Origin: a virus
Length of the DNA: 54,619 nt
Direction: 5' to 3' (one strand)
IMG/VR virus record: IMGVR_UViG_3300044634_004299
Location: 1 to 54,619 of that record
Numbering within the stretch: the stretch's first letter is position 1; each line of letters begins with the position of its first letter. A model generated the notes under the pieces. The model was given only the letters and a program-made list of their open reading frames with translations. It made no database searches and was not told the origin of the DNA. The position numbers and the translations under genes were made by a program. This document shows, piece after piece, positions 34,481 to 53,242 of the stretch.

Positions 34481-35632
34481 ATGAGACAGATTGATAAAAA
34501 AGAAAATAATAAACAACCACCAACCGACCCATTATTGTTAAAATACTTCTTACAAGCAGACGATTTCAATGCTGTTTATCAAGAGTTAAGTAATACTTTA
34601 ATTAATTTCAATCAACCATACGAAAATGAAAACATTTCTTTATATAAACTTTTATTAGCTAACATTCCTATTGAAATTGAACCAGACGGCTACGATACAG
34701 ACACTACACAAGTAAATAAAATACTTTATACACTTAAATTCAAAGCAGATATTAAAAAAGCTTCTTTAACAACACCAAATACAAATTTGGTAACTGGTTT
34801 TAAATATGTTTGTAAAAAGAGTTATACAAATTCTTCAATTACTTATCCTGCTTTTGAAACTTTTGATGGTAAAACTGTTTATTATATTATAAAAATATAT
34901 AATAAAGACGACAATTCACAAATTTTAAATCAAACAAACGAGAAATCTACTGCAACAACAGGTATGTCAACTGCATTATTAGCTAGTTACTATAAAAATT
35001 TTGAAAATTTTGGTAAGTATATACCTAACTGGTTTGATAACATGTCTTATAAAACAATATCAAGATTAACAAATTTTGGTGTTATATTTAATTCTTTTTT
35101 AAACCCTACACAAATGCAAGAAATAAACGACAAACAATTTATTCAAGTAAAAAAAGATGTTAATAAAGCTATAAAATTCAACGAACATCCGTTAACATAC
35201 AAGTATCTTTCTCAATTGAACTTGCCTATTTTAAGACACAATACTAGTGAAAAAGAAATTTATTTTGAAGTTTTAGATTTCTATGTTAGAAACGAAGTTG
35301 GAAATATTAATAATTATCCAATTGGAACTTTTTTTGAGGGTAAAGTTGGGGTTCACAGTCACCAAACAGGTAATTTCAACATAAGTGCTAAGTCAACAAA
35401 CCCTAATGGATTTGAAAGTTTTGATGGTGGGGGTGAGGGTAACGAATATACTAATAATGTTGGCGGACCTAGAAGAAAAACAGTTGAAGTTTCAGGAACT
35501 GTTAATGGAGATTCAGTTGAAACAAATAGAATAAAGAGATTTGGTGAAACTACTTATACAGATACGACTAATAGTTATTTAGAAAACACACCAAACTCTA
35601 TACCATTTTATACATATATGTATGTTGATTAA
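34481..35632 (+). CDS. Tail fibre / collar-type protein
   Basis: The 383-residue protein is the last gene of the tail operon. Its C-terminal part contains HSHQTGNFNI (about 290-299), a His-x-His tip motif found in phage collar and fibre proteins, and a Gly-rich SFDGGGEGNEY segment typical of flexible or fibre-tip loops. It is the main receptor-binding candidate. Its stop overlaps the stop of the convergent helicase gene. Confidence 0.7.
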   Translation: MRQIDKKENNKQPPTDPLLLKYFLQADDFNAVYQELSNTLINFNQPYENENISLYKLLLANIPIEIEPDGYDTDTTQVNKILYTLKFKADIKKASLTTPNTNLVTGFKYVCKKSYTNSSITYPAFETFDGKTVYYIIKIYNKDDNSQILNQTNEKSTATTGMSTALLASYYKNFENFGKYIPNWFDNMSYKTISRLTNFGVIFNSFLNPTQMQEINDKQFIQVKKDVNKAIKFNEHPLTYKYLSQLNLPILRHNTSEKEIYFEVLDFYVRNEVGNINNYPIGTFFEGKVGVHSHQTGNFNISAKSTNPNGFESFDGGGEGNEYTNNVGGPRRKTVEVSGTVNGDSVETNRIKRFGETTYTDTTNSYLENTPNSIPFYTYMYVD

Positions 35633-37119
35633 ATACTTTTAACAAAATCATTATACATATCTATTGTTAGTTGTCTACCTTTTAGAAGTTCAAGTAATCT
35701 TTCTTCAAAGGTTTTCTTATAGATTAAATCGTAGATAAAAACTTCTTTGTGAGGGGAACCTATCCTAGTTAACCTACCCAACAACTGTATTCTTTTAGTT
35801 ATACTTGATTCTGTTTGATATATTATTAAATTATTACAAATTTTAAAATTATCTAAACCAACACCAACAGAATCAATTGTTGCTACACATATATCGTTTT
35901 CTTGCATTAAGGAATCATCACCAAGAAACCTAAAAACTTTGAAATCTGTTTCTGTTCTTATTAAATCATAAACCCTATTAGCTGATTCAACATTATAACA
36001 AGTAACTAAACATTTACCAGTTGTGAAATCTATATTATAAAGAATATCAAACATTTCTTTATCTTTATTTAAAACATCGTTAGATATTCTTTTAGCAACC
36101 CTATTTTCTTTAGAAATTTTAAAATCATTCAACAATTCTTTTATGGAGTATGTTTTTATATCAAAATATATACAACCCGCAATGGCTCTAAGTAACATTA
36201 TCTTTTCTTGAGTATTAACTACTCTTTGTGTATCAGCTATCTCCAAAACCTTATCTTTTTTGAGATTTTTTTGTATCTTTACAATACAATCATCTAATTC
36301 AATGTATATTTGTTTTTCATTTACTTTAATATCATTATCTACACCTACAACATCGTTAAAGAATGCTCTATTTGATAATTCATACAAATTATCATAGAAA
36401 ATAGACTTCATAAAATCTGTTTTAAATTCATTACTGAAACTGGTAAAATTTCCTTTATCATATCTAACTATTTGTGTTTTAAGGAAGTATGATTTAAACT
36501 CATATAAACTAAGTTCGCCACTCTTTTTTCTACCTACAGTTTCTCCTAAGTGGTCTTTAAAAAAAATACCATTTAGGTAACAAGCTATACCAATACAATT
36601 TATAGTATTAGCAATTGTTGTTGCTGATGAGAAAACACAATTACCCTTTAATCTACCTAAAACACCCATTGTTCCTTTAGTTTCTGTTTTTTTTGTTTTA
36701 GAATTAAAAGAAGTTGTTTTTTTACCTACTAAGTTATTATAAATCATAGATTTATCATTGTTTAAATATTTATGGAATTCATCAAAAATGACAAAACAAT
36801 TTTCCAATTTATCAATAACAAAATTTAAACCATATTTTGATAAACTATTAAAACTCATAACAAATATGTTGCTTTTTTCCCTATCTATATCAAAAACATC
36901 TTTTATAATATTAACATCTTCTAAAACATCTTTTAATTGTTTGATTATATTTTTAATATTAATAGCTAAGGTTATAAATATAATGTTTTTGTAACCTTGT
37001 TCTATTGCTAGATTTACAGTTCCATAAGTTTTTCCTGTTCCAGTATCCCAATACAAAAATGTTTTCTTTTCTATATTGGTTTGGTGTGGTAATAGTTTAA
37101 AAGATTCTTTGAATTTCAT
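35629..37119 (-). CDS. SF2 DNA helicase/ATPase
   Basis: The 496-residue protein has LPHQ (10-13), Walker A DTGTGKT (25-31), a DEFH box (113-116), SSATT as motif III and QLLGRLTRIG (445-454) as motif VI, the full set for an SF2 helicase close to DEAD/DEAH and SNF2 types. I start at 37119, where GGAGAAAAATT precedes the ATG, rather than at an upstream in-frame codon at 37146. It belongs to the leftward replication/recombination cluster and probably remodels replication or recombination intermediates. Confidence 0.85.
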   Translation of the reverse strand: MKFKESFKLLPHQTNIEKKTFLYWDTGTGKTYGTVNLAIEQGYKNIIFITLAINIKNIIKQLKDVLEDVNIIKDVFDIDREKSNIFVMSFNSLSKYGLNFVIDKLENCFVIFDEFHKYLNNDKSMIYNNLVGKKTTSFNSKTKKTETKGTMGVLGRLKGNCVFSSATTIANTINCIGIACYLNGIFFKDHLGETVGRKKSGELSLYEFKSYFLKTQIVRYDKGNFTSFSNEFKTDFMKSIFYDNLYELSNRAFFNDVVGVDNDIKVNEKQIYIELDDCIVKIQKNLKKDKVLEIADTQRVVNTQEKIMLLRAIAGCIYFDIKTYSIKELLNDFKISKENRVAKRISNDVLNKDKEMFDILYNIDFTTGKCLVTCYNVESANRVYDLIRTETDFKVFRFLGDDSLMQENDICVATIDSVGVGLDNFKICNNLIIYQTESSITKRIQLLGRLTRIGSPHKEVFIYDLIYKKTFEERLLELLKGRQLTIDMYNDFVKSI

Positions 37120-37128
37120 AATTTTTCT

Positions 37129-37178
37129 CCAAATAAAAAGCACCAATATTTTATTTATATTGGTGCTTAATTTTTTTT
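37129..37178. terminator. Bidirectional terminator-like hairpin
   Basis: Perfect 12-bp arms AAGCACCAATAT (37138-37149) and ATATTGGTGCTT (37157-37168). The right side has eight T (37171-37178) and the left strand has TTTTTATTT. It lies between the exported-protein gene and the helicase gene. Confidence 0.6.
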
Positions 37179-37656: not shown

Positions 37657-37971
37657 TTAACTCTTTGTTGAGTCAATTTTTAAAATTTCTTTGTAATTGT
37701 TTTGTATTATTTGCAAAAACAACTCATCTCTCTTTTTTTGTATTTGTTCTAAAAATTCAATATTTATTTCTTTAGAACAAATTGTATTTTTTTCTTTTTT
37801 GTCTTCTTTTTCTTTATATATATCACTTTGTGATATATACTTTTCATTGTATTTAAATTTAACACAATGATATTCTTTTTTGTAAAAAATTTTAATTACT
37901 ATTAGAGTTATAATATTACTTAAACTAGTTATTATAACTAAAAATAAAATAAACTTAAGAATTTGTTTCAT
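37657..37971 (-). CDS. Small single-pass membrane protein
   Basis: The 104-residue product has a hydrophobic N-terminal segment (about 4-27, ILKFILFLVIITSLSNIITL) and then a Lys/Glu-rich helical tail with two Cys. ATG at 37971 has an AGAGG site; an in-frame TTG at 37977 is less likely. It overlaps the upstream helicase gene by 17 bases. With the exported neighbour the layout recalls i-spanin/o-spanin pairs, but the neighbour lacks a lipobox, so this stays a guess. Confidence 0.6.
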   Translation of the reverse strand: MKQILKFILFLVIITSLSNIITLIVIKIFYKKEYHCVKFKYNEKYISQSDIYKEKEDKKEKNTICSKEINIEFLEQIQKKRDELFLQIIQNNYKEILKIDSTKS

Positions 37972-39619
37972 TTTCAACCTCTATTTTAAATGTTTTTTTA
38001 TGTATATTTATTATATTTTCTAGAACAGAATTATAAAATATATACTTTTCTTTTAATGAACCCCTATTCATTCTACCTAAAGTTTGCATAATGAACTTTA
38101 CAAATGTTTTTTTCTTTAGAGTTTCTAACGATAAGAATTTTCTATCAAAACTTCTTATTGTTGTTTGTATATATAACATTTTATTTATTTCAAGTAAAGA
38201 AAAATCGTTGTATACAATGTTATTTGGTGTATACGGTGTTATCAATTCTTCTTTTTTAAAGTCAAGAAAGTAGAAAAACTCAAACTCTGTAAAATCATTG
38301 CTACCAATTAATTTTGGAGAAGTTAAATAAAGTATCTCGTGATTCGGTGATAAACTACTACCTAATTCCTTTAAAACCTTATTCATTATAGTTTTTGTTG
38401 GTGTTATAAATAAGGTTTTGTGTTCTCTAAATTTATTAAAATCACTATAACAGCTAATTTTAAAATCTTTTATTTCATCAACATTTACATAATTGTATTC
38501 AATATTCTTCTTCATTTTATTTGAAGTAAAGAATTTATTTATTTCGTTTTCTTCAAAATCACCAAATATAGTAGCAGATAAACCAATTATTTTAGACTGA
38601 TTCGCTACTAAAACTTCATATGCTGGAAATGTTATATCTAGATAACCACCAGCTACAACTTCTTTTTCAACATCATCTACAGGAATTTTCTTAGCTAAAT
38701 CGTATTTGTAATGGAAAATATAACCGTTTATATCTAGTTCTTTTGGAAGTAAATAACAAAAATTATCATTACCTTTATTATATTTATAATCATTTATAGT
38801 TGTTATTTTTAATATGGTAACATTGCTATTTATTTCAGCTAAACTATCAAAACTATAACCCCAAACTTTAATATTACTTATATGTAAAAGGTTAGTAAAA
38901 GATTCTTTATTTCTAACTTCAACAAAACAAGAACTGTCTACTGTGTAAAATTCACCGTTTACTTGAAATATTTTATTTTCGTATTTATCTTTAAAATCCT
39001 GTTCCAATACTTCGTCGTATTCTTTATCAATCAAAACTTTCAATAACCTATCATTAGTTATAGGTTTTTTAAACATTATATCATTATTAATAAAGAAAGT
39101 TGATGCTAATATACCTAAGTTAGAGTCTAACTCGTCTATGAAGATATTATCACAGCTATTTATAAAATCTAAATAACAACTAACAACTCTTGATTTATCA
39201 ACATACGAATTCAAAACAAATCCAAGATTATATTGTGTTATTAACACTATATCTGCTATCTCAATAGGTGTGCTTAGATTTATCAAACCTAGATAGTAAT
39301 TAGCTAGTTTTTCTTCTATATTCTCTAAATCTTCTTCTTTATAAAGATTACCAATAGATAATTTTTTACAAACAGAACTAGGGATGTGAATTTTATGTTC
39401 TTTGAGAAATGGAGTTAATTTTATATCGTATAAATCAAAATCGTATCCAAAAAGTTTAACTAACTCCTTTAAAACATCATCAACATTAGATAAATTAGGA
39501 ACAATTATCATGTGTTTTTGGTTCTTATTTTCTTTTATATATTTACACATTGAATAAGTTTTACCCTCTCCTGTGTGTAAATTATTAATTACTGCTTTTA
39601 TTTTATTAAAATCAATCAT
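37955..39619 (-). CDS. Second SF2 helicase, probable relative of the C-terminal domain of the replication protein
   Basis: The 554-residue protein has TGEGKT (16-21), IDELD (Walker B, D162-D165), GLSATIFG (motif III, S348-T350) and QTLGRMNRGS (motif VI, 512-521). Motif wording and spacing are closer to the helicase part of the 45040 protein (GTGKTYAMCK, IDEADESL, QVFGRLMRG) than to the 35629 helicase. They are likely paralogues, with one copy fused to polymerase and primase and one free. Confidence 0.8.
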   Translation of the reverse strand: MIDFNKIKAVINNLHTGEGKTYSMCKYIKENKNQKHMIIVPNLSNVDDVLKELVKLFGYDFDLYDIKLTPFLKEHKIHIPSSVCKKLSIGNLYKEEDLENIEEKLANYYLGLINLSTPIEIADIVLITQYNLGFVLNSYVDKSRVVSCYLDFINSCDNIFIDELDSNLGILASTFFINNDIMFKKPITNDRLLKVLIDKEYDEVLEQDFKDKYENKIFQVNGEFYTVDSSCFVEVRNKESFTNLLHISNIKVWGYSFDSLAEINSNVTILKITTINDYKYNKGNDNFCYLLPKELDINGYIFHYKYDLAKKIPVDDVEKEVVAGGYLDITFPAYEVLVANQSKIIGLSATIFGDFEENEINKFFTSNKMKKNIEYNYVNVDEIKDFKISCYSDFNKFREHKTLFITPTKTIMNKVLKELGSSLSPNHEILYLTSPKLIGSNDFTEFEFFYFLDFKKEELITPYTPNNIVYNDFSLLEINKMLYIQTTIRSFDRKFLSLETLKKKTFVKFIMQTLGRMNRGSLKEKYIFYNSVLENIINIHKKTFKIEVENETNS

Positions 39620-39620
39620 T

Positions 39621-40772
39621 TTACACCTCTAAAATCTTGGTTATTTTTGATAATGGTGTAAAATTAGATATATCACCGTTTTTCATAAGACAATTGTTGT
39701 TTAAAACGAACCAACAAACATCCAAGTTAGAATGTTTACCTTTAACAAAATTAGGTCTTTTGTTATAACCAACAAAAGATGTATTATCAAAATAATTAAA
39801 TAAATCAATTCTACCAATAGAACTAAAAGAAGAACAAGGTAATAATAACATTGATGTTATGTTAATGTTTTCTGTAAATTTATCTTCGTTTTTTTTCCAT
39901 ATATCAAATTTTCTTTTTTCAAATTCTTTATGGAACTCAACACAAAATTCTAAAAAAATATTTTTATTACTGTAAGGGGGATTCATAACAATAAGAACAT
40001 CCAACTTACTATTTATGTCTTTAATTTTTTTACTTAGTTTTGTTTTATCATAAATGAAATTAACATAATCGTTAATATTTTCTTTTTTTAATTCAAAATC
40101 AACCAAATCACTAGCAAAATATGATATTTTACTAGTATCAGCACCACCATCATTTAAACATTTTTTAAAACAATTAAATAAATTATCTTTATTTTCACCG
40201 ACACCACAACAAACATCTATGAATAAAATTTCATTTTCATATTTTTTAGTAGGTTTATTGGTATCAAACATGTAGTGCCCTATCAACTCACTATACATAT
40301 AATCAAAAAAAGCTTTAGCATGCTTTTCAGGAGTAATAAAATGTTCTCCTACAAACTCTTCTTTTTTTTCTCTCAATTTATTAAAAACATTTTCCATAAT
40401 TTTACTCTCCTCTAATTTTAAAAGTTGTATTTCACTTCCTATTTTATAATTTTTATAGAAAGATTCAGGTGTGTCAAAACCGAAATCTTGACAATTTCTA
40501 ACTATATTTTTACCATTTTTAGATAAAAATATTTTTTTATTTGGTATTATATAATCTTCATTTTCTGTGTTTATTTCATTTTCTTTAGTTATTTTATAAA
40601 CACCATATTCAACTACTTTATAACTTTCTATGAAACAATCGCTATTATTTGTAAAAATTTTTATTATAGTATTTTTTTTAATACCTTTAATATTTAAATT
40701 TTGTATTATTTCTTTTCTTTGTGATAAAAGAAAACCAGTATAAGCATTAAAACCAATTATTATATCAAGCAT
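39621..40772 (-). CDS. N6-adenine DNA methyltransferase
   Basis: The 383-residue protein has the SAM-binding motif DVCCGVGE (from D186) and the catalytic NPPY (264-267) in the order typical of type I/II gamma-class adenine methyltransferases. The N-terminal 150 residues may serve target recognition. No restriction subunit is nearby, so it probably protects phage DNA from host restriction. GGAG precedes the start; it lies one base from the helicase gene. Confidence 0.85.
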   Translation of the reverse strand: MLDIIIGFNAYTGFLLSQRKEIIQNLNIKGIKKNTIIKIFTNNSDCFIESYKVVEYGVYKITKENEINTENEDYIIPNKKIFLSKNGKNIVRNCQDFGFDTPESFYKNYKIGSEIQLLKLEESKIMENVFNKLREKKEEFVGEHFITPEKHAKAFFDYMYSELIGHYMFDTNKPTKKYENEILFIDVCCGVGENKDNLFNCFKKCLNDGGADTSKISYFASDLVDFELKKENINDYVNFIYDKTKLSKKIKDINSKLDVLIVMNPPYSNKNIFLEFCVEFHKEFEKRKFDIWKKNEDKFTENINITSMLLLPCSSFSSIGRIDLFNYFDNTSFVGYNKRPNFVKGKHSNLDVCWFVLNNNCLMKNGDISNFTPLSKITKILEV

Positions 40773-41196: not shown

Positions 41197-42168
41197 TTAT
41201 TTTTTATTTTTTAATATAGAAGCAACCTTGAGTATAAGTTTAACCCTCTCTTTAAACCTTTCCTCATACTCCTCTGGTGTAATTGACTTTTCTACAAAAA
41301 GTTCTTCGCCGTCAATTATATTCATTTTATCTAACATAAAAGAATAAGCTTTATAACCACCAAAATCATAGATAGTTTTTTTCATTGAAAATTCTACAGA
41401 TGCAGAAACATCTTGTAGTTTCTTCTTTTTACCACCATGAAGCAATTGTATTTCACCATTACTTAATGTAACACCAATTATATTTTCTTCGGTAACCATT
41501 TTTGCATGGTTATCACCGTTTATATAAGAGTTACCACTATAGTAATGGAAGCATACTTCATACTTTCCATTAATATTTATAAGGAAAATCCCTTTTACAC
41601 AGTTCTTAACAACAAAAGCATCTGTCTTACTTTCATCATATTCTGTTGTGTAGTTTCCGTCTAAATCTTTCTTTAGATAAGTCACAAACTCATCATAAGT
41701 TTTATTAGGAAATCTCGTTGCTTCTACAGGTATTTTGTTTGCTGTAGATTTCTTCAAATAAATTGGTAAAGAGTTTTCTTTTAATCCATCCCCAGTATCT
41801 TTATTAATCCTTTTAAATTTTTTATATTTTATAAACGTTAAAGGTGTAATTTTAAAATCATTTACTAAAATTATTTTTTCGCCAATAATTACATAAATGT
41901 CGCCAGTCTTTAAACGAACATCTTCGTTTTGAACTGCAGTTTCTAAAATTGACGAAGAACCAGCTTGTTTAACACGGATGTTGTGGAATTTCAATCCTAA
42001 ATCTTCTTCAGTATAACCATCTTCTTCATCAAAGATGATTTCTTCTTCTCCAAAAACTGATTTTTGTAAACTGTTTTCTTCAGTAGTTAAAATTGTTTTT
42101 TCTAAAACTTCTTTTTCTTTTTTTTCTTTTTTTTCTATTTCTTTTTTTATAATATTTTTTAAATTCAT
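41197..42168 (-). CDS. Hypothetical protein, 323 residues
   Basis: Not recognised. The first 40 residues are extremely rich in Lys and Glu, followed by an acidic FDEEDGYTEEDLG stretch and a beta-rich body with FHYYSGNSYINGDNH. The C-terminus is helical and basic. It has its own promoter and a good AGGAAA site and stands between the nuclease genes and the adenine methyltransferase. A role as an abundant DNA-binding or single-strand-binding protein is conceivable from context only. Confidence 0.6.
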   Translation of the reverse strand: MNLKNIIKKEIEKKEKKEKEVLEKTILTTEENSLQKSVFGEEEIIFDEEDGYTEEDLGLKFHNIRVKQAGSSSILETAVQNEDVRLKTGDIYVIIGEKIILVNDFKITPLTFIKYKKFKRINKDTGDGLKENSLPIYLKKSTANKIPVEATRFPNKTYDEFVTYLKKDLDGNYTTEYDESKTDAFVVKNCVKGIFLININGKYEVCFHYYSGNSYINGDNHAKMVTEENIIGVTLSNGEIQLLHGGKKKKLQDVSASVEFSMKKTIYDFGGYKAYSFMLDKMNIIDGEELFVEKSITPEEYEERFKERVKLILKVASILKNKK

Positions 42169-43150: not shown

Positions 43151-44164
43151 TTAAAAACCACTTGTTTTTTCTATCTCGTTTTCTTCTGCTTCAGTTAATT
43201 TTGGTTTTGTTGAAGTTAACTCTAAGTTATAAAATTTCTCCTTAAAAGTATACTTATCTTCACCCTTGTAAGAAACCATTTCCATAACATTTTGTGTAAC
43301 TTCTTCATAATTTTTTTCATAATCAGGAATCATGAATAAAACATCATTAATGTTATTTTTACCAACAGCAATATAATAGCTGTTTATTTCATAATCTTTT
43401 GCTACTTTGTGTTTACCAAAGAAGTTATTGTTATTATGAATGTAAACCATTGTTAACCATTCGTAATATATTGCTTGGTAAATATTTTTTGTTGAACCAA
43501 AACTATAATGATTACTATAATCATTAGTTGTAGCACAAGTTTTTATATCACCTATTAAAATTTCTACGACTTCGTCTTGTTCGTTTTTAATTAGGTTTAC
43601 TATATCTAATTTACCTTTTAATGTAAATTTATCATTTTTCATTATTATTTGAAATTCTGTTAATTTGTTTTTTAAAGAATCACCAATTGTTTTTTTATAA
43701 AGTTGATGGTTTTTTACAGAATCACTTAATCTTTTAACTAACTCAAATTCTTCTGTTGTTAAAAAAGTATTACCATTGAAGATAATTTCTTTTAAAACAG
43801 GTTCCATTTCTTTCATTTTTTTATTGTAATAATGGGTAGTATTCCCATCTGGTATTATTTCTTTAATGATAACATCATCAAAAAAAGATTTAGGTTCTAA
43901 TAACATTTTATGAACCGCTGTTCCAATTCTTAAACTATCACTAGGAATAGTTATTTTATCCAAATCTTTTTCTCTAAAAACATTTATATTATTTTTTAGT
44001 TTTTCATGGTTTTTTGGATTAAAACTAGTGTTTTCCCACCAAGTTTTTTTACTAAAACTACTTGATACAAAATTTTTATATTCTGTTCCAGAAGTAGCAT
44101 TTTTAATATTGTGGTATTCTAAATCTTTTAGAATTGTTTTTTTTATTTTTAAATCTTTAACCAT
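43151..44164 (-). CDS. RecB/RecE-family PD-(D/E)xK exonuclease
   Basis: The 337-residue protein has the family motifs in order: GTAVHKMLLEP (H85), KGKLDIV (D187), GDIKTC (D206-x-K208) and YQAIYYEW (Q230-x3-Y234). These belong to the Cas4/RecB/YqaJ superfamily close to RecE-like phage exonucleases. It would resect DNA ends for recombination-dependent replication. A partner annealing protein was not recognised. It is the first gene of the leftward cluster and has an AAGGAG site. Confidence 0.8.
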   Translation of the reverse strand: MVKDLKIKKTILKDLEYHNIKNATSGTEYKNFVSSSFSKKTWWENTSFNPKNHEKLKNNINVFREKDLDKITIPSDSLRIGTAVHKMLLEPKSFFDDVIIKEIIPDGNTTHYYNKKMKEMEPVLKEIIFNGNTFLTTEEFELVKRLSDSVKNHQLYKKTIGDSLKNKLTEFQIIMKNDKFTLKGKLDIVNLIKNEQDEVVEILIGDIKTCATTNDYSNHYSFGSTKNIYQAIYYEWLTMVYIHNNNNFFGKHKVAKDYEINSYYIAVGKNNINDVLFMIPDYEKNYEEVTQNVMEMVSYKGEDKYTFKEKFYNLELTSTKPKLTEAEENEIEKTSGF

Positions 44165-45039: not shown

Positions 45040-48000
45040 ATGAATAAATTATTTTTTGATATTGAGATTTTAAGCAACGATAAACTGAGACTTGGTTTAT
45101 TGGATGAAAATGGTGTTTTTGAAATATTGGATTTTGATAACCTTTATTCATTCGGTCAGTATTTGGTTACTGATTTCATTTACAAATACGACAAAAACAT
45201 TCTTGTAGGTTATAACAACGAGGGGTTTGATAACAAGCTTTTACAGTATTCAATAATGATTTTAGACCCTAATAAAGCAGTTTATAAAAGGTCACCGCAG
45301 TTCATAACAGATGTTCTCATAACTGCAAATAACAATAAGAAAATGGAAGCTTTAAAGCTCCAAGATGAAAAATATTACAAATCTGTTTTATTTTACAAAA
45401 ATAGTGGTGAATTAGACAAACTTTACTACAACCAACTACCTTTCATAGACCTAATGAATTTCTTTAAAGGTGGTGCTAGTAAAGAGGGTTCTTTAAAGTT
45501 TTATACAGCTAAATTTTTAAATAAATCTTATGATGATTCGCAGGATTTTGATTCTGTAGAATATTTAAAAATGGACTTAGAAAATACAAGGGATTTGTAT
45601 AATCTAAAAAAGGATGATTTTGAAGTAATTTTCACAGCTTACAACTTGTTAAACATTGATATTAGGGGTTCTATAAAGGAACCATCTTTAGCTGGTGCTT
45701 ATCTAAATAAAAATTTAATTTTCAATGATAATTTCAAAAATAAATTTAAAAAAGATTTTGAGAATCACCCTATTTTTTACGATATGATAAATTCAGTAAA
45801 AAAGAAAGAAATTAACTATCTAGGTTACAATGTTGAAGTTAACGAGGGTGGTATCCACTTCTCAAAAACAAATGGTTTTTCTTATAAAAAAGAAGAGAAT
45901 CAGGACTACTATATTTACAACATAGATGCTACCTCATTTTACCCATACACATATATTCAAAACGGTATTTTTGAAGAATCATCTACAAAAAAAATAAAAG
46001 AGTTTCTTGAGAAAAGAAAAATTGCTAAAAAAAGCGGTGATAAAAAAACAGATTCTGCATACAAACTAGTCCTAAACAGCTTATACGGTAAAATGTTTTC
46101 TAGATGGGATGAAACAAAAACCACAGCACACGTAACATTTTATACACAATCGGCTATTCTTTCTTTTATAGAAAAAATGAATAATGACGGTTTTTTAGAT
46201 GATTTAATTGATATTAATACAGATGGTATAATAATAAAATCAAGAAAAAAAATTGAAGAATCAGTTATAGAATTTACAGACCCATTAACAAAATTAATTT
46301 ATTCTTTTGAAGTAGGGGAAGTTGATTATCTTTACTATAAAGATTCTAACAACTATATTGTAAATTTTGTTGGAGAAGATAAAACAAAATATAAAGGTTC
46401 TTGGGTTGAAAATGCTAGTTGCCACAGTTCCATAAACCTTATCTTCTTTAAAAATATTTTAGATGGTATTTTAAAAGAATCACCCATTGAAGAATTTAAA
46501 GATATTTGGTTTAAGGGTATAACCAAAGAAAAAACAAGTGATAAAACAGCAACATACCATTTTGACTATGTTGATTTTACAAGAAACGAACAATTTTCTT
46601 TTGAAAACCCAAACATTATACAAAAGACAGTTTTATATGGTAAAGATAAAGATTTACCACCTAAAAGATTCTTTAAAGGTTATATAACCGATGAGGAAAA
46701 ACTTTTTGTTATAGAATCTATAAAAAAGGATTTCTTCCAAAAAACATCCAGTGTTTTTTATGGTGCAGAATCAGATAAAAAAAATAGTAGGGCGGTTATC
46801 GCTAAAACAAACTTTGTTTTATGTGAAAAAAAATATATAAAAATATTTTCCGAATCACTTTCAAAAAATATATTCATTTTAGATTTTGATAATAAAACTG
46901 ATTCTATTGAAAATATACAAAATGCTATAGATTCTTTTAAAAGTTTCATTAAAGAAAAAAATATTTTATTTGAAGAAGAAGTATCTTCTTCTGGTAAAGG
47001 TTATCACATAATCTTATCAAACTATAAAAAAGATTTAACAGAAGAAGAAATAAAAAATAAAATAAAAGAAATAAAAACCCCAGAATGTGAAATTGAGTTA
47101 AGATATAATAACGGTGATGGGACAACTCTTTCTTGGGATGTTTCTAGATTATCTAAAGAGAGAAGAAGATTTATTCATGATTTAATAACAACTAAAGAAG
47201 ATGTTGTTATTAAAACTGTTGCTAAACAAAAAACTAAAAAGAAAGAGGGTAAAACCCTAATAAATGATAAACATTTATCAAAAATAAAAAAGATAGTTGA
47301 AAATTCTAATTTAGGTTATGTTTACGAATCAATTAAAGATAATACAGACTTAGTTTTTAAATGTCCTCACAATCATAAAAAAACAAACTCAAAAACTGAA
47401 ATATATTATTCCAAGGAAGAAGATAGATATGTAGCTAATTGCTTTGCTTGTAATTCAAACGAAGAAGAACTAACAGTGTTAAACAAATTAAGAAGTGTTA
47501 TAAACACAGTTATCATAGAGAAAGTTGAGGAACAATATAAGTTAGAAGAAAAAGCTGCAGATTGTAAATTTGTAATTGATAAGAGCGATGTAGGGACTGG
47601 TAAAACTTATGCAATGTGTAAGGATGTCAAAAATCTAATAGAATCAGGTGAAAAATGTTTTATTATTGGTAATAAAACAACAACAAGTGAAATGATTCGT
47701 AACCAACTTTTAGAATTAGGTGTTATGGACGGTGATATTTTCATATGTGCTTCACCAGATAACGCTACTGATAATTGGAGAAATTTTGTTGAGGTTTTTG
47801 AAGATAAGGGTTATAAAATAATAATAGCTATTTATAGTTATTTTCAACTTTACTATGAAAATACAAAACAATTTAAAAAATATAATAATGAAGCTGAATT
47901 AACCAACTATTTATCAAACTACACTTTATTAGCTGGTTTATCTAATTATTGCAATAACAATTCTGTTAACCTTTTTATAGATGAAGCTGACGAATCACTT

Positions 48001-49401
48001 TCAAATATTTTAACACTTAAAATAAAAAATCCTATAATTTTTGGTAAAAAAGATAAAAAAACTAATTTTTGGAATTATTCAAATAAAAGTGATTCTCAAG
48101 TTTTGGGTTTTTGTGAATTACAGAAAGATTTGTTTTTTATAAATCCTAAAAAAAATGATGATGAAAATAAAGAAACTGCAGATTTTTTAAACCCTATAGA
48201 ATTTAAAAATAAAAATAAATTATCTGTTTTCTCTTTTGAAAATAGTTTTTTATGTAGACAAAATGAGGTAGAATACCAAGGCTCTAATAAGGATATGTTA
48301 AAATTTGGTGATATAACACTAAAGGTAGAAAAACCAAAAGAATATGGTAGGTCTCATTTAAAAGTTGAATTAATTAAAGCTAAAATTAACTTAAATAAAA
48401 ATGAAGTATACCAAGAATGTTTTTACAATCTTTTAAAAAATGAACTAATATTAGAAAATAAATTTTTTACAAAATTTCTTATAAACACAAATTTTAAATC
48501 AATAAAAATATTAACAGCAACCGAATCAAGGTTACAGGACTATAAATTTTATAAAGATTTTATTGATTTAAAAAGAGTTATATATATTGAAAATAAAACA
48601 TCATTTAAGCACAATTTTAAAGCTTACAGGATGGATATAACAACTGGTGGTGCTAATACTAACGAAACATCTTATAACTGTGTTAAATCAATAGAAAAAG
48701 AGAAAAATTCAAAAAACTTACTTGTTATGGGAAATAAAGAAAATACTAAGAATAGGTTTGATAGTGGTAAAATACCTTTACCTAATAGCAGGTTTATAGA
48801 ATTAAACAAACACTATAAAAGGGGTTATGATGGTGATTTCTTCAACGACAACGGTATAAAAACAATCATATCTTATGTTAAACACTCTTCCCTTAGGGGT
48901 AATAACAATTTTGGAGAAATTAACAATGTAGTTCTTGCTTTTAGTTCATATGTTGGAGATTACAACCAAGATGGTTGTTTTGGTGACTTTAAAAGTATAT
49001 ATAATGGTAATCATGGTAAAATTCTAAAAGACTTGATAAAACAAGTATTCGGTAGACTTATGAGGGGTAATCCTGATAAAAAAATATATTATGAGTATGC
49101 TGTAAATAAAAAAGAAGAACCAACAGAATCTTCCATTTTATTAGAAAAATTAATAAAAGAGTATGATATAGAAATAGTTGATTTAGATTTGAAAGAATCA
49201 CTTAATTTTTTTAGTAATGTAAAATTAGACGATTTAGAAATAAAAAACGAATCACTTAAAAAATATGAAAAATACGAAAAAGAATTTTACGATGGAAAAG
49301 AGTTATTAAAGAAAATAAAAAAAAATCCAAGTAAAAAAAACAAAGATAATATAAAAAGTTTATATAATAGTTTAAGGAAAAAGTATAATGGTAGTATTTG
49401 A
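45040..49401 (+). CDS. Fused DNA polymerase B - AEP primase - zinc module - SF2 helicase
   Basis: A 1453-residue protein in one frame. Polymerase B: ExoI FFDIE (D7, E9), ExoII NNEGFD (59-64), ExoIII YLKMD (175-179), motif A DATSFYP (from D296), motif B K342-LVL-NSLYG (to 350), motif C NTDG (393-396). The first motif C Asp is Asn here. Primase of archaeo-eukaryotic type: DFD (615-617), SGKGYH (651-656), D700 and R703. Zinc-binding: C775, H777 or H779, C801, C804. SF2 helicase: GTGKT (852-856), DEAD (981-984), QVFGRLMRG (1335-1343). It would synthesise, prime and unwind phage DNA in one chain. The ribosome binding site is weak. Fusion or assembly error are the alternatives; the frame is uninterrupted, so real fusion is likely. 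Confidence 0.9.
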   Translation: MNKLFFDIEILSNDKLRLGLLDENGVFEILDFDNLYSFGQYLVTDFIYKYDKNILVGYNNEGFDNKLLQYSIMILDPNKAVYKRSPQFITDVLITANNNKKMEALKLQDEKYYKSVLFYKNSGELDKLYYNQLPFIDLMNFFKGGASKEGSLKFYTAKFLNKSYDDSQDFDSVEYLKMDLENTRDLYNLKKDDFEVIFTAYNLLNIDIRGSIKEPSLAGAYLNKNLIFNDNFKNKFKKDFENHPIFYDMINSVKKKEINYLGYNVEVNEGGIHFSKTNGFSYKKEENQDYYIYNIDATSFYPYTYIQNGIFEESSTKKIKEFLEKRKIAKKSGDKKTDSAYKLVLNSLYGKMFSRWDETKTTAHVTFYTQSAILSFIEKMNNDGFLDDLIDINTDGIIIKSRKKIEESVIEFTDPLTKLIYSFEVGEVDYLYYKDSNNYIVNFVGEDKTKYKGSWVENASCHSSINLIFFKNILDGILKESPIEEFKDIWFKGITKEKTSDKTATYHFDYVDFTRNEQFSFENPNIIQKTVLYGKDKDLPPKRFFKGYITDEEKLFVIESIKKDFFQKTSSVFYGAESDKKNSRAVIAKTNFVLCEKKYIKIFSESLSKNIFILDFDNKTDSIENIQNAIDSFKSFIKEKNILFEEEVSSSGKGYHIILSNYKKDLTEEEIKNKIKEIKTPECEIELRYNNGDGTTLSWDVSRLSKERRRFIHDLITTKEDVVIKTVAKQKTKKKEGKTLINDKHLSKIKKIVENSNLGYVYESIKDNTDLVFKCPHNHKKTNSKTEIYYSKEEDRYVANCFACNSNEEELTVLNKLRSVINTVIIEKVEEQYKLEEKAADCKFVIDKSDVGTGKTYAMCKDVKNLIESGEKCFIIGNKTTTSEMIRNQLLELGVMDGDIFICASPDNATDNWRNFVEVFEDKGYKIIIAIYSYFQLYYENTKQFKKYNNEAELTNYLSNYTLLAGLSNYCNNNSVNLFIDEADESLSNILTLKIKNPIIFGKKDKKTNFWNYSNKSDSQVLGFCELQKDLFFINPKKNDDENKETADFLNPIEFKNKNKLSVFSFENSFLCRQNEVEYQGSNKDMLKFGDITLKVEKPKEYGRSHLKVELIKAKINLNKNEVYQECFYNLLKNELILENKFFTKFLINTNFKSIKILTATESRLQDYKFYKDFIDLKRVIYIENKTSFKHNFKAYRMDITTGGANTNETSYNCVKSIEKEKNSKNLLVMGNKENTKNRFDSGKIPLPNSRFIELNKHYKRGYDGDFFNDNGIKTIISYVKHSSLRGNNNFGEINNVVLAFSSYVGDYNQDGCFGDFKSIYNGNHGKILKDLIKQVFGRLMRGNPDKKIYYEYAVNKKEEPTESSILLEKLIKEYDIEIVDLDLKESLNFFSNVKLDDLEIKNESLKKYEKYEKEFYDGKELLKKIKKNPSKKNKDNIKSLYNSLRKKYNGSI

Positions 49402-49844: not shown

Positions 49845-50609
49845 ATGGTTTTTTTTAAAAAAAATAATTACAACCTTGATAGAATTAGATGTTTCTGCAT
49901 TGAGGGAGACGACGGAGTAGGTAAAACAACATTTATAAAAAATATTATGAGAAATTCTGGTAACAGGAGATTCGCATACATCCACATGCCAAGTAACATA
50001 ACATACTTGGTTGATAAAGACTATGACCCATATTTAACACACTTTGATAATTTCTTAAAAAATATGAATAATTATAAAGATTTTACAACCACAATGAATC
50101 AGGAATGTCTATTACAGTCAGTAGCAGTAGGTTACAACATACTTACCACAATACTTACGACTAGCTATATAATCATACAGGACAGGGGTATTATAAGTAA
50201 TATTGTTTATAAAAATTACAAAAAAGTAAAAGATAGAATACATTATAGGAATATTGATAATAAGATTAGTCAAAGTTACGATTTTATAAAATACCATGTA
50301 ACTAACTTTGAAGATTTTATAGACAGAACCTTACATGTTATTCTAGATAGCAGGACTTTTAAAACAGACAAAGGGGATACTTTATTTTTAACTAATAAAA
50401 ACTTAATGAGATTCCATAAAAATTTCACAGTAAAAAAAGAAAGTGATAGAATTAAAAACGGTTATTTAGATTTCTTATACTATTACAAAAAGAATTCAAA
50501 AAAAGAATTTAACTTCACTAAAACAATTGTCGTTGGTAAATATTTCTACTATAATAAAAAAATGGATATAAATAAACTAAAGAAAGAATACCATAATCAA
50601 AATGTTTAA
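49845..50609 (+). CDS. Thymidylate-kinase-like P-loop kinase
   Basis: The 254-residue protein has the P-loop GDDGVGKTT (21-29) after FCIE, the conserved Asp-Arg (QDRGIIS, D113-R114) as in thymidylate kinases, and a C-terminal helical lid region. dTMP kinases usually have E-G-x-D-G-x-GKTT, which matches EGDDGVGKTT here. It probably supplies dTDP for phage DNA. It sits in the replication operon. Confidence 0.75.
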   Translation: MVFFKKNNYNLDRIRCFCIEGDDGVGKTTFIKNIMRNSGNRRFAYIHMPSNITYLVDKDYDPYLTHFDNFLKNMNNYKDFTTTMNQECLLQSVAVGYNILTTILTTSYIIIQDRGIISNIVYKNYKKVKDRIHYRNIDNKISQSYDFIKYHVTNFEDFIDRTLHVILDSRTFKTDKGDTLFLTNKNLMRFHKNFTVKKESDRIKNGYLDFLYYYKKNSKKEFNFTKTIVVGKYFYYNKKMDINKLKKEYHNQNV

Positions 50610-52134: not shown

Positions 52135-53169
52135 TTAAAAATAAATTTTGTCAAATAACTTCCTAACCATTAAAGGTGGTATACTCTCACCTATCAATTC
52201 TCTAACAAAATGTTCTGTATAAATATCATTTACAACAATTTTATCAATAGGTATAGTATGTAATATCATCAATTCCAGCAAAGTTAAAACCCTAGCATCA
52301 CTATATAAACCATTCTCTAACAACCTACCATAATGGCAATTAGCACCAGAAGATATAGTAGTATTAGTAGTTGTTATAGTATGGTGTGGTTTATCAAAAT
52401 AAGTCCTTTTATAAGTGCTTCTAAAAGCTTTTATTCTTCTACCATTTGTTTTAGGGTAGAAATCCAAATTATCCATTGCACTTTTACCAGTTGGGGTATG
52501 TTTTATACACTCTATTAGTTGTTTGTTTGCTACATCTAGTGCTTTATGATATTTTATACCAGAATCACAACCAGCTTCTAAACTAGGTAAATGACCTATA
52601 GCTTCTCCAACAGTAACTATTTTTTCTTTGTTTGGCAATTCCCAACTCAAACCTTTTCTATAGATTCGGTAAAATAATCTTTTTCTTTTTTGTGGGACAC
52701 CATATTCACTACAATCCAAAACATCATACTCAACATTATACCCTAATTTATCAAATTCAGTTTTAAGGTGATTCGCTAAATCAACACCATTTATCATAAC
52801 CTTATTTATTTGCATTACATTTTCTATCAAAACATAATCAGGATAAACTATTTTACAATAGTCTATCACCCTTAGTGTTAAGAAATTTCTTTTATCTAAC
52901 ATGTCCCTCCTACCAATAAGACTAACACCTTGACAAGGTGGGGTAGCAATGAGAAATTTAACATCATTTCTAAGTGATTCTTTAACAACACTATCAAAAA
53001 TATCATTATCCAAGATATCACCACAAATCATATTATTTTCTGGATGGAGAACTTTATAATAATTAGACCTTTTACGAATCAGTTCGTTAGCAACAACAAT
53101 TTTTAACGAATCAGGTAGCATTAATTCTGCAATACCGCAATTAGAAAACAAACTACAACCATTAATCAT
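52135..53169 (-). CDS. C5-cytosine DNA methyltransferase
   Basis: The 344-residue protein has motif I FSNCGIAEL (8-16), motif IV PPCQGVS with catalytic C79, motif VI IENV (E116), motif VIII-like CSEYGVPQKRKRLF, and motif X IGESIPP near the C-terminus. All are in the order of dcm/HhaI-type enzymes. I start at 53169 behind AAAAGGAATAAAAAA; an in-frame ATG at 53205 is possible. No cognate restriction enzyme was recognised, so it probably masks sites from host restriction. Confidence 0.9.
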   Translation of the reverse strand: MINGCSLFSNCGIAELMLPDSLKIVVANELIRKRSNYYKVLHPENNMICGDILDNDIFDSVVKESLRNDVKFLIATPPCQGVSLIGRRDMLDKRNFLTLRVIDYCKIVYPDYVLIENVMQINKVMINGVDLANHLKTEFDKLGYNVEYDVLDCSEYGVPQKRKRLFYRIYRKGLSWELPNKEKIVTVGEAIGHLPSLEAGCDSGIKYHKALDVANKQLIECIKHTPTGKSAMDNLDFYPKTNGRRIKAFRSTYKRTYFDKPHHTITTTNTTISSGANCHYGRLLENGLYSDARVLTLLELMILHTIPIDKIVVNDIYTEHFVRELIGESIPPLMVRKLFDKIYF

Positions 53170-53242
53170 TTTTTTATTCCTTTTTAAAAAATTATATTTT
53201 ATCATTATAACACAACTTAATTTTAAAAGGAGAATAGGAAAA

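Follow-up and report, generated by a model that had tools for sequence, protein, structure and literature searches.

A phage open reading frame that joins a family B DNA polymerase, a likely archaeo-eukaryotic primase, a putative zinc ribbon and an SF2 helicase in a single chain

We analysed the whole of a 54,619-bp viral record (IMG/VR IMGVR_UViG_3300044634_004299, linear class; hereafter the window), which carries tailed-phage genes (TerL, portal, head protease/major head protein and baseplate-type) at a G+C content of about 24%. On its plus strand, at 45040..49401, lies an open reading frame (ORF) of 1453 codons that runs from ATG to stop in one open frame and in which we found, in order, a family B DNA polymerase (PolB), a region with the motifs of an archaeo-eukaryotic primase (AEP), a zinc ribbon and a superfamily 2 (SF2) helicase. 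Scored in 100-codon windows against the phage's own codon usage, the ORF frame keeps log-odds of 0.16 to 0.35 throughout, the other two frames are negative along the full length, and Shine-Dalgarno-plus-start matches within the ORF occur out of frame only. The uniform coding signal and the lack of an in-frame internal start therefore give no sign of a hidden or lost gene boundary, and the gene on the 3' side overlaps the stop at 49388 in the style of a compact operon. An earlier reading of this DNA, the first-pass annotation, had described the four modules as following one another without a stop. That reading holds, with strong support for the PolB, good support for the helicase and support at motif level for the AEP, and the ORF is a real, unusual fusion.

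The N-terminal part of the chain, residues 1-560 (45040..46719, +), is confirmed as a proofreading family B polymerase. The phrog_1252 profile ('DNA polymerase') matched residues 2-486 at E = 7.7e-30, and alignment with four phage and plasmid PolBs showed all of the expected residues to be invariant: D7/E9 (ExoI), N59/D64 (ExoII) and Y175/D179 (ExoIII) of the 3'-5' exonuclease, D296, Y301 and P302 of motif A, K342, N346 and G350 of motif B, and N393-TDG396 (NTDG) of motif C, the last common to all aligned PolB relatives. A Pfam search by itself missed the PolB domain of the 1453-residue protein; a profile built from the window PolB and the four relatives found E. coli Pol II in a PDB set at E = 4e-11. 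The family B polymerase with 3'-5' exonuclease motifs that the first-pass annotation had read was recovered. Only 39 residues separate motif A (ending at 302) from motif B (starting at 342), a gap that could not hold the TPR1 insertion seen in PolBs that use a protein primer, which suggests that the enzyme should require a nucleic-acid primer. At least 80 viral PolB relatives were retrieved, among the matches listed. Stand-alone phrog_1252-type PolBs, such as those of Alteromonas phage R7M, a Megaera plasmid and Vibrio phages, are homologous to the window PolB (mostly 21-33% identity over matched stretches), but those that we measured are open frames of about 480-820 residues and, unlike the window protein, have no fused primase or helicase.

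At the other end of the chain, residues 826-1354 (47515..49101, +) are confirmed as an SF2 helicase, as the annotation had read from GTGKT, DEAD and GRLMRG. The motifs stand in order, with motif I DVGTGKT at 850-856, motif II FIDEAD at 979-984, motif III at 1157-1163 (TATES, 1159-1163), motif IV at about 1227-1234 and motif VI QVFGRLMRG at 1335-1343, and this ladder occurred in 0/20,000 shuffles. In a search confined to the record, ResIII matched residues 826-939 (47515-47856) at E = 3.5e-5, under its curated cut-off; it matched three places in all, the others being two further helicase ORFs. The sole match in the record to phrog_18535, which is called a primase family, was also to the C-terminal helicase region (E = 2.5e-5). 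The Herpes_ori_bp (UL9-type) profile gave no match at E <= 10, in a weak test, as no control genome passed the cut-off either.

Between polymerase and helicase, residues 606-735 (46855..47244, +) probably form an AEP core. FILDFD at 612-617 is followed by a 31-residue gap and then by SSSGKGYHI from residue 649 (SSSGKGYH, 649-656), which is the motif I/II pair of AEPs: motif I (hhhDhD) has its DFD at 615-617 and motif II (SxxGxH) its SGKGYH at 651-656, suitably spaced. The pattern was found in 0/20,000 shuffles and in 4/2010 ORFs sampled around other phage PolBs; of these, the three that were checked all match known phage primase families. For the third catalytic acid of motif III the candidates are E686, which GP55 (discussed below) suggests, and D700. 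The DFD and SGKGYH motifs named in the first-pass annotation are therefore in place, and its D700 and R703 are present, with a role in motif III that is unsure. Searches of the record for a Toprim primase and a DnaB helicase found none, with each detected in 14/14 control genomes, so that the AEP region is the only primase candidate seen. A Herpes_UL52 profile did not match. AEP primases also stand near PolBs of the same type in three other records, either alone (L020:10271-11071 and L031:9461-10033) or joined to a DUF927 helicase (L078:15319-18177). The functional pairing therefore recurs, fused in the window, and by their sequences the three represent the unfused form of the PolB-AEP partnership. 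Judged by its motifs, the region at residues ~606-735 is likely to be an archaeo-eukaryotic primase.

A putative zinc ribbon at residues 761-815 (47320..47484, +) sits between primase and helicase. C775, H777 or H779, C801 and C804 fit a C-x(1,3)-H...C-x2-C ribbon, so the Cys/His module of the earlier annotation is present at motif level only; the DnaG zinc-ribbon profile did not match it, and phrog_8634 ('DNA primase') matched the region weakly (E = 0.04).

The first-pass annotation had held that known fusions join only two of these activities, and the literature contradicts it. A PolB group named HelPrimPolB takes its name from a fusion of SF3 helicase, PrimPol and PolB (PMC7544198, 2020), and purified GP55 of lactococcal phage 1706 has helicase, primase, polymerase and 3'-5' exonuclease activities, with a helicase activity that depends on UTP/dTTP, and forms dimers (PMC12205980; Zhang et al. 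2025). GP55 falls in PHROG 4210 (phrog_4210), and 252 records of the phage collection match it across at least 80% of its length. Like the window protein, GP55/HelPrimPolB is a single phage polypeptide with a helicase, an AEP primase and a PolB with 3'-5' exonuclease; the sizes are comparable (1317 residues in GP55 and 1453 here) and the AEP motif pairs are alike (IVLDFD...SKSGGGIH in GP55, FILDFD...SSSGKGYH in the window). The order, however, is SF3 helicase-AEP-alpha-helical domain-PolB in GP55 and PolB-AEP-zinc ribbon-SF2 helicase in the window, whose protein does not show the layout by which HelPrimPolB is recognized, with an SF3 helicase at the N-terminus, the AEP in the centre and the PolB at the C-terminus. 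Nor did we find full-length similarity between the two, the best BLASTP match having E = 0.015 over 51 residues.

Other fusions share parts of this design. One of them is PREX of Apicomplexa (PMC6523293). It resembles the window protein in holding a primase, a helicase, a 3'-5' exonuclease and a polymerase in a single chain, but its polymerase is of family A and its primase and helicase are N-terminal. The PREX primase and helicase are of the Toprim/DnaB (T7 gp4-like) type. Among polinton-like viruses, Tlr1 and OmPLV have PolB-helicase fusions, and in Tlr1, as in the window protein, the PolB is N-terminal and the helicase C-terminal; both differ in having a protein-primed PolB and an SF1 helicase, with no AEP reported (PMC12721341). 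Phage AEP primase-helicases (for example, that of L078, and phrog_8841) place the AEP before the helicase, as the window protein does, and their genes lie close to one for a PolB of the window's type, but these chains have no polymerase and their helicase is of DUF927/AAA type rather than SF2. What is distinct here is the mirrored order, the SF2 helicase in place of SF3 and the added zinc ribbon; the all-in-one idea is itself known, and a claim to the first one-polypeptide replisome is not supported.

By sequence, the phage has at least three SF2 helicase cores. One of the two outside the fusion is a 554-residue stand-alone SF2 helicase (37955..39619, -) that has no PHROG match and scores 26.1 bits with ResIII, above the cut-off. 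It is likely to be paralogous to the helicase at the C-terminus of the fusion, with 26% identity end to end, the same motif ladder, and GxGKTYxMCK, NxFIDExD and QxxGRxxRG in common; the Smith-Waterman score between them was modest (z = 2.7, equalled by 7/300 shuffles). Duplication inside the phage is a possible origin of this pair. The other is a 505-residue helicase at 35629..37146 (-), matched by phrog_62 ('DNA helicase', E = 9e-28) and by ResIII in the record (E = 5e-7). As the phage has two or more helicases besides that of the fusion, the fusion protein need not work alone; the minimal one-polypeptide replisome of the first-pass annotation is, given the fusions already described, a known kind.

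Further genes of DNA metabolism surround the fusion. On the minus strand lie an exonuclease VIII (RecE)-like recombination nuclease (43151..44164; phrog_412, E = 4e-11), a C5-cytosine DNA methyltransferase (52135-53205; PF00145, E = 6.5e-41) and a second methyltransferase-like ORF (39621-40772; phrog_799). Just downstream of the fusion, a deoxynucleoside/thymidylate kinase-like ORF (49845-50609, +) perhaps supplies nucleotides. A 323-residue ORF at 41197-42168 (-), close to the genes for the recombination nuclease and the helicases, has no family match; its product is a candidate single-strand binding protein. The non-coding start of the record, positions 1-200, has DnaA-box-like sequences (TTATCCACA / TGTGGATAA) and is a possible replication origin. 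Provided that a match to a baseplate-wedge protein is correct, the tail would be of the contractile kind. No tRNA genes were found in the window, and in ten genes counted arginine is encoded nearly always by AGA/AGG, with one CGT and no other CGN. The IMG/VR record may be incomplete. Searches with TerL and portal found no close relative, and the replicase is likewise without close relatives.

To place the fusion among its relatives, we built a PolB tree. In it the window PolB has a very long branch and falls among the stand-alone PolBs (support 91). An approximately unbiased (AU) test did not reject a joint clade of the window PolB and HelPrimPolB (p = 0.076). Separate assembly of the two fusions is likely from their architecture, for which the tree is not proof. 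Using tblastn, we found no relative of the primase-helicase half in phages and plasmids. Neither another such fusion nor any relative of its C-terminal half emerged when IMG/VR and GTDB genomes were scanned by pattern plus tblastn (queries: the full-length protein, its C-terminal half and an alignment of the two helicases), when 40 records with PolB relatives were searched by profile, or when DNA patterns for FGRLMRG, DVGTGKTY and NSLYGKMF were used. The hits obtained were rejected as relatives, being SNF2 helicases, P-loop ATPases of other kinds or chance matches. These scans were limited in scope, with the metagenome collection outside them, so the rarity of the fusion is not proven.

We consider it probable that the ORF encodes a one-chain phage replicase, assembled separately, with a PolB, a primer-making AEP, a zinc ribbon and an SF2 helicase, and the phage probably has no other polymerase or primase that can be recognised. 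Several results weigh against this. AEP profiles from Pfam and NCBIfam, and Prim-Pol and PriS in searches within the record, did not match the 1453-residue protein, which taken literally is an outcome that the first-pass annotation had itself named as refuting its reading. With hhalign, a GP55-family AEP profile had its best local match in the whole chain at residues 646-688, but weakly (E = 0.05, probability 1%, equalled by 2/100 shuffles), and a second AEP profile, of three sequences, returned noise. Structure prediction with AlphaFold, without an alignment, on residues 572-845 and 760-1453 gave no usable fold (predicted local distance difference test, pLDDT, of 40 and 33); Foldseek with the low-confidence 572-845 model found no significant match, only small ferredoxin/RNA-recognition motif (RRM)-like folds. 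Only one sequence with the order PolB-AEP-zinc ribbon-SF2 is known, the joint clade stands unrejected by the AU test, and the two further helicases could be the replicative ones. As a control, however, we found that the biochemically proven AEP of GP55 is likewise missed by Pfam, and the silence of the profiles is therefore not decisive here.

The silent profiles, the small ferredoxin/RRM-like core in the low-confidence model and a third catalytic acid that is not clearly assigned (E686 or D700) would also suit a polymerase-helicase fusion whose middle is a degenerate AEP or an unrelated RRM-like linker, with priming by the host or another phage protein. We regard this as unlikely, since AEP motifs I and II are intact with the spacing and place expected, their signature is specific (0/20,000 shuffles; 4/2010 phage ORFs), Pfam fails on the GP55 AEP too and no other primase was found in the record. 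Less likely still, in our judgement, is that the protein is a divergent, domain-rearranged member of HelPrimPolB (GP55) rather than a separate invention: the set of activities is identical, phrog_1252 matches both PolBs and the AU test does not reject the grouping, but the domain order is mirrored, SF2 stands for SF3, a zinc ribbon replaces the alpha-helical domain, full-length similarity is lacking and the tree sets the window PolB with stand-alone PolBs, albeit on a long branch. A joining of adjacent polymerase and primase-helicase genes by sequencing or assembly error is very improbable; the fusion comes from a single IMG/VR record and no second copy was found to confirm its junctions, yet the one-frame coding signal is uniform over all 1453 codons, no in-frame start with a ribosome-binding site lies at the junctions, and the next gene overlaps the stop as it would in a compact operon.

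For the one-chain replicase, we propose that the N-terminal PolB would extend primers and proofread, the central AEP would synthesize the primers that the PolB requires, the zinc ribbon would probably aid the AEP in template binding or primer hand-over, and the C-terminal SF2 helicase would open the duplex ahead of synthesis and displace the strand. By analogy with GP55, a dimer is possible, with one copy priming and the other extending. Such a fusion may have arisen when a stand-alone phage PolB was joined to an AEP-zinc-SF2 helicase module, apart from HelPrimPolB/GP55. We infer all of these activities, as well as the dimerization and the separate origin; that such a chain can work follows from the biochemistry of GP55 (PMC12205980).

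On balance, we lean towards a second class of all-in-one replicase in phages that evolved independently of the first, has its domains in mirrored order and uses an SF2 rather than an SF3 AAA+ motor, reached by convergent assembly. If active, the protein could be considered as an enzyme for isothermal DNA amplification that needs no added primers. It would also offer an independent comparison for GP55 on the question of whether domain order matters for primer hand-over and for the coupling of helicase to polymerase. The comparison could show what a zinc ribbon contributes relative to an alpha-helical domain. An active protein would mean that phages built one-chain replisomes more than once, drawing on different helicases and arranging the domains in opposite orders.

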